Source of the DNA: Candidatus Methanosphaera massiliense
GTDB taxonomy: Archaea > Methanobacteriota > Methanobacteria > Methanobacteriales > Methanobacteriaceae
Reading direction: 5' to 3'
NCBI RefSeq assembly: GCF_028890305.1
Contig: NZ_JARBXM010000001.1
Coordinates: 250,501-314,500, forward strand
Length of the DNA stretch: 64,000 bases
Shown here: piece after piece, positions 27,656 to 31,091 of the stretch
Numbering within the stretch: position 1 is the first letter of the stretch
Layout: the number at the start of each line of letters is the position of its first letter
Translations under genes and position numbers: made by a program
Notes under the pieces: generated by a model
Databases searched by the model: none
What the model saw: only the letters and a program-made list of their open reading frames with translations
Told to the model about the DNA's origin: nothing

Positions 27656-28522
27656 ATGGAGCTAAATGATAACTGGTATACGTTATATGAGGCATTGTAT
27701 GGTACTAACTTTAACAGGTTAATGACAGTTGGTACACCTACAGAGGGATATGAAAATTATCCATTATCAACAATCGATGATATACGTGAACTCATTGAAG
27801 AGTATTACCCTAAAAATGAATTTTACATATCATTATATGATTTTAATTCTAAAGACCCTGTTATTTCATGGGATAGGTTAGATAATGCTAAATATGAAAA
27901 ATATGCAAAAAAAGATTGTATTTTATTTAGATTTAAACAAAATACAGATATTATAAGAGAAGAAATTGTTGACTTAACCGAAATAGAACAATTCATGTTC
28001 ATAAGACGTTCAATAAACTTAGGAAATAACAAATCAATGATTAAAGACATGAAAAATGTATCTGAAAGTATTGAAAAACTATTTAACATAAAACCATTAG
28101 CAATATTTAATGGTTACTCTGAAGGTTATTTATACATATTTACCGATGAATTAAAACTAAAAAATCCAACAATTACCTTTTATTACTTCTATAAATTCAT
28201 AGAAAACTATGCAGATACTGTAACACTAAAATACTTAAATATAGATCCATTTTCACAAATTGTCACAATGCCTGGAAGTGAAAATAATTATTCTAGGTTA
28301 TATGCAAAACCATTTGATATAACAGCTAGTTATCCAGCCATAATCAAAAATAGTGAAAATAATATCTTAGAATCAATTGATTTAGGTAAAAATCAGGATA
28401 CTCATGCATTAGAATCATTATTAAAAACTGTTGATGATGAAATAAGTAAAAGAAAATCAGAGGGAAATACAAATGCATGGAATTATGATTTAGATAAATT
28501 ATTTAATGAAAGACGTGAATAA
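27656..28522 (+). CDS. Divergent archaeo-eukaryotic-primase-like protein (uncertain)
   Basis: A 288-residue protein not recognised with certainty. The order of three segments resembles the PriS/AEP fold: NEFYISLYDF (54-63) then ILFRFKQNTD (89-98) where primases have an Asp-x-Asp pair; FNGYSEGYLYIF (151-162) where they have the sGxRGxH motif; and VTMPGSENNYSRLYAKPF (203-220) where they have a RxPgSxHxxTG motif. The catalytic acidic pair is not present in the first segment, so the protein may be inactive or have shifted residues. Single gene with long flanking gaps. An unrelated fold is possible. Confidence 0.45.
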   Translation: MELNDNWYTLYEALYGTNFNRLMTVGTPTEGYENYPLSTIDDIRELIEEYYPKNEFYISLYDFNSKDPVISWDRLDNAKYEKYAKKDCILFRFKQNTDIIREEIVDLTEIEQFMFIRRSINLGNNKSMIKDMKNVSESIEKLFNIKPLAIFNGYSEGYLYIFTDELKLKNPTITFYYFYKFIENYADTVTLKYLNIDPFSQIVTMPGSENNYSRLYAKPFDITASYPAIIKNSENNILESIDLGKNQDTHALESLLKTVDDEISKRKSEGNTNAWNYDLDKLFNERRE

Positions 28523-29022
28523 TTCTGAGTATATTCTAAACTTTCCCTTCATTGATTTTTTAAATACTAATTCTAATATTATAAAATAAACTTCTATTTA
28601 ATTATTCTAATTTTGTTTAAACATACTACTTATTCTTGTTAATTAAATTTAACTATTTATTTTTAGTTACTAATTAAATTGATTTAAAATCCTACGAAAA
28701 AAATACATATTAAATAGAATTTAACAAAATAATTTTAACTTAAAATGAATATAAGACAAGAGTATCTATAATTAAATATTTTACAGTTATATAAAGTTAA
28801 AAATAGAGTTAAAAAGACGAATTTACATTAATTATTAAAATAAATTAAGAATAAGTATCTATTTTACAAAATAAGAATAAAAAACGAATTTAATTTATTT
28901 GATTTCAATAAACTCAATTACTATTTATTTAAATAATTATTTATAACACCAATTACAAAATAATATTAATTATACTTATTATACTAGTTATTTTAAGATT
29001 TAAATAAAATAAATTGGTGAAA
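28523..29022. other. Gap between the primase-like and acyltransferase genes
   Basis: 500 bases, very AT-rich, with frequent stop codons in all frames. A TTTCCC then T-rich stretch just after 28540 is a weak terminator. A GGTGA ribosome binding site at 29016-29020 sets the acyltransferase start. Nothing else was identified. Confidence 0.45.
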
Positions 29023-30072
29023 ATGAAAAGAATTTTGTATATTGATTATTTAAAAACTCTTGCTATTTTTGGTGTCATTGCAATACATCTAAGTTCGAAA
29101 TATATAACACACTATACTCTAAATTCTAGTTTATGGTTTAGTGGACTGTTTGTTGAATCAATGTTCCGATTTAGTATAATTTTATTTGTCATGGCTTCAG
29201 GTATTCTACTTATAAAAAAAAATCAGACAATAGACGATATTCCACGACGTTTAAAAAGAATAGGTATACCATTTATAGGATGGTTTCTGATATACTTTAT
29301 TATTAAAATGTCCATGAAGTATTCATTAACTTATATTATTTCAAATATTTTTAATCTATTAATTATATCAATTCTTGACCCTACTATACTAACTGTAGAA
29401 TTTTGGTTCATCTATATGCTTATTGGATTATATCTTGCTTCACCAATAATATGCTCATGGATTAGAAATGCAGAAATACGTGAAATTGAGTATTTTTTAG
29501 TAATTTGGCTTATAACAATATTTATAAAAATGTTACCTTATAATGATAATATTATTATATATATGAATATGTTCTTTGGATACGTAGGATATTTTATTCT
29601 AGGATACTACTTAATTAATAAAGATTCAGAATTACTAAAAAGTCGTAAATTTGGTGCTGTATTATATATCATAGGCACTCTTATGACATTTATGGGAGTT
29701 ATAGCTGCAAGTAATTTTATAGGAGAACTTGAATTAACATTCATGCCTCTTGGTGATCTTACTATTAATGCTTGTCTTCAAGCAGTGGGTATGTTCTTAA
29801 TTATAAAAAATACTGATTTTAGTATTATATGGGGAAAATATAGTGATAAGATTAATAGAAAAATTACATTAATTAGTAATTTAACACTGGGAATCTATCT
29901 TACAAATGTATTACTTATTAATGCTTTAGATAAAATAGGAATTTATGACATTAGTATTAGTCCCTTTATCAATATTCCAATACTTACTGTAATTGTAGTA
30001 TTTATGTTAATGATTATTCTTCTAATTATGTATAGAATACCCTATGTTAATAAATTAACAGGAATAGCATAA
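29023..30072 (+). CDS. Membrane-bound acyltransferase (acyltransferase 3 family)
   Basis: About 349 residues and some ten transmembrane helices. It has the family start RILYIDYLKTLAIFGVIAIH, with the conserved His at about residue 22, followed by the RLKRIGIPFIGW block and a Trp-rich FWFIYMLIGLYLASPI. Such enzymes O-acetylate or otherwise acylate surface glycans. The frame opens at TTG 29014 and GTG 29017, but these overlap a GGTGA ribosome binding site placed for ATG 29023. Confidence 0.88.
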   Translation: MKRILYIDYLKTLAIFGVIAIHLSSKYITHYTLNSSLWFSGLFVESMFRFSIILFVMASGILLIKKNQTIDDIPRRLKRIGIPFIGWFLIYFIIKMSMKYSLTYIISNIFNLLIISILDPTILTVEFWFIYMLIGLYLASPIICSWIRNAEIREIEYFLVIWLITIFIKMLPYNDNIIIYMNMFFGYVGYFILGYYLINKDSELLKSRKFGAVLYIIGTLMTFMGVIAASNFIGELELTFMPLGDLTINACLQAVGMFLIIKNTDFSIIWGKYSDKINRKITLISNLTLGIYLTNVLLINALDKIGIYDISISPFINIPILTVIVVFMLMIILLIMYRIPYVNKLTGIA

Positions 30073-30092
30073 ACCTCCCCCATTTCTATTTT
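30073..30092 (+). terminator. C-run/T-run 3' element after the acyltransferase gene
   Basis: ACCTCCCCC immediately after the stop codon, then ATTTCTATTTT. It matches the recurrent 3'-end motif. Confidence 0.5.
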
Positions 30093-30141
30093 ATTAAAAA
30101 ATTTATTATTCGGATTATTTTTTAAAATTATTTTCAGTAAC

Positions 30142-30154
30142 TTTATATTATATA
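30142..30154 (+). promoter_or_regulatory. TATA-like promoter of the candidate structured RNA
   Basis: TTTATATTATATA lies about 30-40 bases before the 5' end of the folded element at 30185. That is close to, or slightly longer than, the usual archaeal TATA-to-start distance of 25-30 bases. The DNA is AT-rich, so a chance match is possible. Confidence 0.4.
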
Positions 30155-30184
30155 AAAAATATAATATTAAAATAAGATATAGAC

Positions 30185-30314
30185 TAGGTCTATGGTGATT
30201 TATAATCTAACAAATAAGAGATTATTATAAAAGAATATGACCTTAATGGTTATGCGTATCTAAATTCTTTTATAAAAAACAACGATTTTTGTTTTATTTA
30301 CCATATGAGACCTG
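30185..30314 (+). ncRNA. Candidate structured RNA with a multibranched fold
   Basis: A closing helix pairs AGGTCT (30186-30191) with AGACCT (30308-30313), and continues ATGGT (30192-30196) with ACCAT (30300-30304), leaving a 3-base bulge. Inside it are three hairpins: ATAATCT/AGATTAT (30202-30208 / 30219-30225); a perfect 11-pair stem TATAAAAGAAT/ATTCTTTTATA (30226-30236 / 30264-30274) topped by ATGACC/GGTTAT; and AAAACAA/TTGTTTT (30276-30282 / 30289-30295). No frame is open through it. It lies 200 bases before rps3ae, which has its own possible TATA, so it is more likely a free RNA than a leader. Not matched to a known family; not tRNA, 5S, 7S or RNase P by eye. Confidence 0.5.
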
Positions 30315-30518
30315 ACGGAATATTTCAAATTAATAGATTTAAAATTTTTATTTAACACGGCAATGGGTAATTAAATTTACTAAAATAATAACCACCACAA
30401 ATAACAGGTTACAAATCATTATTTTAACATTTTTCAATCATATTATATGATAAAATGCTGTAAAATAATTAAAAAAACTAAGAAATAATTTACATAAAAA
30501 TATAGGAGAAAAGATATA

Positions 30519-31091
30519 ATGGCAAAAGCAAGAAGACGAGTACGTGATACATGGAAAGAAAAAATTTGGTATGAAATATTAGCACCACAAGAATTTGATG
30601 AAGCAAGTCTTGGAACAAGCCCTGCAAGAGAACCAGAAATGCTTGTAGGTCGTAAAATTGAAACATCTATGCGTGAAATTACAGGTGACTTCAGTAGACA
30701 ATACGTAAAATTATTCTTTGAAGTAGACCACGTAAGTGGAGAAGTAGCTCACACAATATTTACAGGACACAAAGTAACAACAGATTACGTACGTAGTATG
30801 ATTAGAAGAGGAACCAGTCGTATCGACTCAATAACTGATGCAACTACAAAAGACGGTAAAAAAATCAATGTACACATGTTAGCAATAACTGTAAAAAGAG
30901 CAAAAGCTTCACAACAAAAACTCATCAGAGAAACTATGAGAAACATGGTTTTAGAAAGTGCAGCTGAGAAAAATCTTGATGAACTTGTAAAAGAAATAAT
31001 ATCAGGTAAATTTGCTTCTAACATTTACCATGAAGCTAAAAAAATATACCCACTTAAAAAAGTAGAAACCATCAAAACAAGAGTATTCTAG
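30519..31091 (+). CDS. rps3ae: Ribosomal protein S3Ae (eS1)
   Basis: A 190-residue basic protein with the start MAKARRRVRDTWKEKIWYEI and the conserved GRKIETSMREITGDFSRQYV and MIRRGTSRID segments of archaeal S3Ae, which sits at the mRNA exit of the small subunit. GGAGAA precedes the ATG. It ends in a clear C-run/T-run 3' element. Confidence 0.96.
   Translation: MAKARRRVRDTWKEKIWYEILAPQEFDEASLGTSPAREPEMLVGRKIETSMREITGDFSRQYVKLFFEVDHVSGEVAHTIFTGHKVTTDYVRSMIRRGTSRIDSITDATTKDGKKINVHMLAITVKRAKASQQKLIRETMRNMVLESAAEKNLDELVKEIISGKFASNIYHEAKKIYPLKKVETIKTRVF

Follow-up and report, generated by a model that had tools for sequence, protein, structure and literature searches.

We found that positions 30176 to 30340 of a 64,000-nucleotide stretch of the genome of Candidatus Methanosphaera massiliense (here, the window) almost certainly hold a previously unlisted RNA fold of about 165 bases. 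The element, which we call R1, folds on the + strand, is conserved within the genus Methanosphaera, and keeps a constant place before rps3ae, the gene for ribosomal protein S3Ae (eS1). Comparative evidence gives the predicted RNA good support. We favor a role in cis, with R1 as a leader of the rps3ae mRNA to which S3Ae itself may bind, and give this reading about an even chance of being right. The first-pass annotation had proposed a structured RNA at 30185 to 30314. A structured RNA does lie there, but the conserved unit is longer, by about 9 bases on the 5′ side and about 26 bases on the 3′ side (Table 1). No open reading frame (ORF) of at least 40 amino acids lies inside 30185 to 30314, in keeping with its description as noncoding DNA, and the next gene is indeed rps3ae (PF01015), which starts at 30519, 205 bases downstream.

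The MFE fold of 30185 to 30314 on the + strand has a closing helix with a 3-base bulge around three hairpins. The bulge had been described in the annotation and was recovered, but the 11 pairs claimed for this helix were not: the MFE helix has 7+7 pairs interrupted by the bulge, and relatives support 6+6. The middle hairpin of the MFE fold has the 11-pair stem and 6-pair tip that had been described, while relatives support 12 and 5 pairs. Altogether, the helices backed by relatives comprise 6+6, 6, 12+5, and 6 pairs. The folding energy of 30185 to 30314 is −32.9 kcal/mol, whereas 200 dinucleotide shuffles averaged −16.5 (sd, 2.85) and never reached so low a value (z = −5.76). The reverse strand is also stable (z = −4.20), as is expected of stems. 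Across 16 genus copies, each compared with 100 shuffles, the median z was −2.95 (range, −1.56 to −4.77). The energy signal is therefore consistent within the genus, though weaker in several relatives (L003, L011, L013, L017, and L019; z of about −1.6).

A DNA search of 20 genus genomes found R1 in 19. We then built a covariance model, which matched 30177 to 30340 of the window with 143.2 bits. With strict filters, under which weak matches may be lost, the model matched 19/119 family genomes and 19/151 class genomes, and all 19 were Methanosphaera (19/20 genus genomes). None of the 131 other class genomes searched had a match, nor did viral contigs (searched with an exact pattern) or plasmids. 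Each of the 19 genomes has a single match. The twentieth genus genome (G013) probably carries a version of R1 as well, judging from its sequence. This version is degenerate (16.9 bits, E of about 0.7) and is recognized solely by the P3 hairpin with its GCGUAUCUAA bulge and by a downstream UGACGG.

We monitored covariation in an alignment of 15 of the 19 genus rows, leaving out L002 (the same as the window copy), L008 (the same as L007), L017, and L018. RNAalifold alone predicted P1 to P3 of the same fold, with changes on both sides in 18/35 pairs. P4 was added from a second RNAalifold run, of which two odd outer pairs were omitted, giving 41 pairs. In these 15 Methanosphaera sequences, 94.9% of cells pair, and both-side changes occur in 21/41 pairs (50 cells), a count that is somewhat favored because the same alignment had yielded the structure, although the margin is large. 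None of 500 shuffled alignments matched any of the five covariation measures. When the 3′ partner was slid by 1 to 3 columns, only 40 to 50% of cells paired and 4 to 8 pairs had both-side changes. Compensatory changes are thus abundant and go well beyond the controls, as they do in a structured RNA. The annotation had named a lack of such changes and a folding energy no better than that of shuffled sequence as grounds for rejection, and neither ground holds.

G-U cells far outnumber A-C cells in the genus alignment (24 versus 5), which points to the + strand as the RNA strand. The folding of both strands could also be taken to indicate a DNA-level element, either a palindromic operator or the remnant of a mobile element. 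The wobble asymmetry argues strongly against this, as do the compensatory changes, which occur in each of the six helices counted (4, 3, 2, 9, 1, and 2 pairs), and the single match in each of the 19 genomes, and we regard such an element as barely credible.

Mean identity is 0.86 in the paired columns and 0.29 to 0.38 in the loops of the three hairpins and the internal loop of P1. In contrast to these loops, the unpaired joints are conserved: the short joint between P1 and P2 has a mean identity of 0.92, and the 5′ segment, the P3 bulge, and the 3′ tail are likewise kept (Table 1). Variable loops together with conserved unpaired joints suggest that R1 is more than a set of simple hairpins and that these segments form a core for binding or tertiary structure. 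Two copies are unusual in their sequence. One (L017:1331-1599) has an insertion of about 90 nt at the P3 tip that itself extends the stem, and another (L018) has an N gap within the 5′ half of R1.

Table 1. Features of R1 and its surroundings. Coordinates are positions in the window; the last row gives loci of other genera.
Feature	Position	Strand	Remarks
Conserved promoter-like block TTTATATTATATAAAAAATATAATA	30142-30166	+	Kept with substitutions in 16/16 genus loci aligned
TATA-like box TTTATATTATATA	30142-30154	+	Begins 34 nt ahead of G30176, where conservation sets in
Whole conserved structured RNA, R1 class	30176-30340	+	Start placed by promoter spacing and by where conservation sets in; end where conservation stops
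Unpaired conserved 5′ segment AUAUAGACU	30177-30185	+	Mean identity 0.99
P1a 5′ strand AGGUCU	30186-30191	+	Partner 30308-30313; both-side changes in 4/6 pairs
P1b 5′ strand UGGUGA	30193-30198	+	Partner 30298-30303; both-side changes in 3/6 pairs
P2 hairpin	30203-30224	+	30203-30208 with 30219-30224; both-side changes in 2/6 pairs; loop variable
P3 hairpin, lower stem, 12 bp	30225-30236/30264-30275	+	Whole hairpin 30225-30275; both-side changes in 9/12 pairs
P3 tip, 5 bp	30237-30241/30249-30253	+	Both-side changes in 1/5 pairs
P3 one-sided 10-nt bulge GCGUAUCUAA	30254-30263	+	Mean identity 0.93; also in divergent G013
P4 hairpin	30276-30295	+	30276-30281 with 30290-30295; both-side changes in 2/6 pairs
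P1b 3′ strand	30298-30303	+	From covariation count
P1a 3′ strand	30308-30313	+	From covariation count
Unpaired conserved 3′ tail GACGGA..UUUCAAAUUAAUAGAUUU (also given as GACGGA..UUAAUAGAUU)	30314-30340	+	Mean identity 0.87
3′ arm UGCUGUAA of spacer hairpin	30456-30463	+	Recurs before rps3ae Shine-Dalgarno sequence; partner arm changed in several relatives (by eye)
Shine-Dalgarno-like AGGAGA ahead of rps3ae	30504-30509	+	Similar purine run in relatives
rps3ae, ribosomal protein S3Ae (eS1)	30519-31091	+	PF01015, E 1.4e-67
Second-element loci	L050-L053, L055-L059, L063-L079, L082-L086, L088-L096, L098-L102, L118		Upstream of rps3ae

The first-pass annotation had called R1 a candidate new RNA, and we found that no Rfam family matched it. 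Rfam 15 gave no match at the gathering threshold in the whole window. At E values up to 10, the region from 30060 to 30530 gave two sub-threshold matches alone (E of 0.76 and 6.7), and at E values up to 1, the loci of 13 relatives gave nothing credible. The view that R1 does not belong to the tRNA, SRP, or RNase P RNAs also held. ARAGORN found no tRNA or tmRNA gene in the window. The one RNase P RNA match of the genome (RF00373) lies at C1:514926-515229, and its one SRP RNA match (RF01857) lies at C1:1463827-1464142. Like R1, both are structured RNAs present in a single copy in this genome, but they lie at other loci. A box C/D sRNA carries a C box (RUGAUGA) and a D box (CUGA) that close a k-turn. 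CUGA is present at 30312 to 30315 and in most rows, but by eye the rows share no conserved RUGAUGA close to the 5′ end. Nor did we see by eye, around P1 (GAC/GACGG), the second-helix arrangement of a k-turn (helix, 3-nt bulge, tandem G.A, helix).

A resemblance to riboswitches or multibranched regulatory RNAs had been suggested as well. The fold is compatible with this but does not prove it: its multibranched junction, with unpaired segments that are conserved, has the general look of a riboswitch. For a metabolite- or ion-sensing riboswitch, however, the constantly linked gene is the wrong kind, as it encodes a ribosomal protein rather than a metabolic one. Among the 151 class genomes, R1 was also matched in just one genus, and no Rfam riboswitch matched it; the PreQ1 match at 30457 to 30487 reached 16.7 bits against a gathering threshold of 39 and lies outside the element. 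We consider a riboswitch improbable.

We found that rps3ae follows all 19 R1 matches on the same strand after a gap of 136 to 223 nt, a constant place before one ribosomal protein gene, as would be expected of a leader. None of the matches lies away from rps3ae. In the degenerate version (G013), the spacer to rps3ae is about 375 nt, which we counted against a leader. On the other side of R1, we examined 18 genus loci, 17 of which had enough sequence, and one gene family lies directly upstream in 16/17. In the window, the gene at 27656 to 28522 is 59% identical to the upstream gene of a relative and has no Pfam match. An acyltransferase gene (29014 to 30072; PF01757) lies between it and R1, yet R1 remains with rps3ae, which we counted in favor of a leader.

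The TATA-like box that had been noted upstream of the RNA lies within a conserved block that is present in all of the genus loci aligned, and no conserved block was seen upstream of it. We learned a TATA matrix from 19 of 30 tRNA upstream regions, dropping 11 with a G+C content of at least 0.30. This matrix gives the box a score of just 3.9, under the chance maxima, and the promoter call therefore rests on conservation and spacing. Best scores ranged from 0.0 to 6.8 upstream of the RNA and from −0.3 to 9.3 in the spacer between R1 and rps3ae. The spacer score was the higher one in 12/16 loci, and both are within the range of shuffled sequence; for the shuffled window spacer, the mean maximum was 5.3 and the 95th percentile was 9.6. 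The spacer is poorly conserved and weakly structured (median z of −1.09, versus −2.95 for the core). In the genus alignment, we saw by eye no conserved TATA box or terminator between the RNA and rps3ae, a point in favor of a leader. T-runs of at least 5 occur in the spacer of 9/16 loci at scattered places. In the spacer (30345 to 30519) and its counterparts in relatives, the hairpins vary, and T-runs follow some of them (e.g., L012, L014, and L016).

The main rival of a leader is a free-standing, trans-acting noncoding RNA, about 165 nt long and transcribed from a promoter of its own. Its conserved unpaired segments would bind a protein or another RNA, and rps3ae would be merely a stable neighbor with a separate promoter. 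Conservation sets in about 34 nt downstream of where the TATA-like box begins and fades past about 30340, where the poorly conserved spacer follows, and the long conserved unpaired segments resemble binding sites. The weakly structured spacer and its higher TATA scores keep an independent small RNA plausible. In some relatives (e.g., L012), a hairpin and a T-run follow the RNA, which supports this rival and speaks against a leader. R1 has no visible Shine-Dalgarno sequence, and we identified no expression platform, which likewise counts against a leader. Against a free-standing RNA, every one of the 19 matches is linked to rps3ae, rps3ae itself has by eye no conserved promoter, and the spacer of 7/16 loci has no T-run of at least 5. 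Taken together, we consider a free-standing RNA a substantial possibility that falls short of probable.

The leader reading rests on the constant linkage in 19 genomes and on a different element at the same spot in sister genera, both of which suggest the behavior of a cis-acting ribosomal protein leader. According to this model, R1 would be the first part of an rps3ae mRNA 5′ leader of about 340 nt, transcribed from the TATA-like box at 30142. A protein would bind the conserved unpaired segments AUAUAGACU, GCGUAUCUAA, and GACGGA..UUAAUAGAUU, which the P1-P4 junction would hold together. S3Ae is the simplest candidate ligand, a guess from the linkage. Its binding might adjust how stable the rps3ae mRNA is or how it is translated; in other archaea, L7Ae acts in this way on its own leader. 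Archaeal L7Ae autoregulates via a k-turn in its own 5′ UTR (PMC5539422). That leader resembles R1 in being a structured 5′ element of a gene for an archaeal RNA-binding ribosomal protein, with a TATA box upstream and a Shine-Dalgarno sequence downstream. It differs in being a short simple k-turn beside the Shine-Dalgarno sequence, whereas R1 is a 165-nt four-arm junction well away from it. In titles and listings of the literature searched, we found no paper on R1 or on a structured S3Ae leader.

We found rps3ae in 92/99 family genomes and read the sequence upstream of it by eye at 10 loci of other genera and in 40 further stretches (9 from genus g4). In 9/16 other genera of the family, rps3ae is preceded by a different conserved element, ACCUUUAUGGGCGGGUUUUA (GGGCGG). 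This second element has the form AACCUUUAUGGGCGGGUUUUA-n-UUUAAAACUUU and starts about 33 nt after a TTTATATA/TTTAAATA TATA box. The hairpin that follows it (GGAUUGAUUCC, GUGAG..CUCAC, GGGCAGAGCCC) appears by eye to covary. The pattern of the GGGCGG element gave 70 matches in 66/98 genomes. Of these, 60 matches, in as many genomes, are linked to rps3ae, with a gap of 174 to 568 nt. Among the 10 unlinked matches, five have 2 to 3 mismatches and another five are in g8, g12, and g17. We rejected these last five as moved copies and attribute them to chance: they lie inside a long ORF in antisense orientation, next to a short ORF that we take to be tatA-like by the tatA/tatC naming.

We also built a covariance model (R2) from the first 78 positions of the second element, using 35/38 extracted rows; g2, g3, and three odd rows had been omitted earlier. 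The element is divergent in L092, L095, L096, and L098. R2 also matches L092, L118, and L095, and matches L096 weakly. It has no credible match in Methanosphaera (the window, L049, L014, and L018 at 12 to 16 bits), and the R1 model did not match GGGCGG-element loci at E values up to 10 (12 such loci among 20 sources). Rfam gave no match to the second element in the loci scanned. In g11, g12, and g17, which may be Methanobacterium-like, neither R1 nor the GGGCGG element was found beside rps3ae. By eye, L054, L080, L081, and L087 (g12, g17, and g11) appear to have a third arrangement, with a TATA-like box and then a leader of at least about 150 nt, which we also counted in favor of the leader reading of R1.

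Distinct RNAs before the same gene in different groups are also found among bacterial ribosomal protein leaders, as is reported for S15 regulators (PMC4137082), much like the two elements here. R1 differs from those leaders in being archaeal, and its protein binding and any mimicry of rRNA are putative.

It is conceivable, though we think it a long shot, that R1 and the ACCUUUAUGGGCGGGUUUUA element are diverged forms of one ancient, fast-evolving RNA for the control of ribosome assembly that perhaps touches rRNA. We take GUAUCUAA (30256 to 30263, in the invariant bulge) to be complementary to the universal 790 loop of 16S rRNA. Similarly, UGACGG (30313 to 30318) and GGGCGG are presumably complementary to neighboring parts of the 1400 region of 16S rRNA. 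The 8-nt GUAUCUAA match is at about chance level (about 0.7 expected for about 30 windows against about 1.5 kb), and a search of seven genomes returned no 16S rRNA; the complementarity is for these reasons just a lead.

To our knowledge, few structured leaders or large noncoding RNAs are known in archaea. Here, a covariance-supported RNA holds a fixed place ahead of a small-subunit ribosomal protein gene, and sister genera have a different conserved element there. R1 would thus be a case of archaeal ribosomal protein control by RNA structures that turn over rapidly. In Methanosphaera, a genus of gut methanogens, R1 may belong to the rps3ae message and adjust rps3ae.
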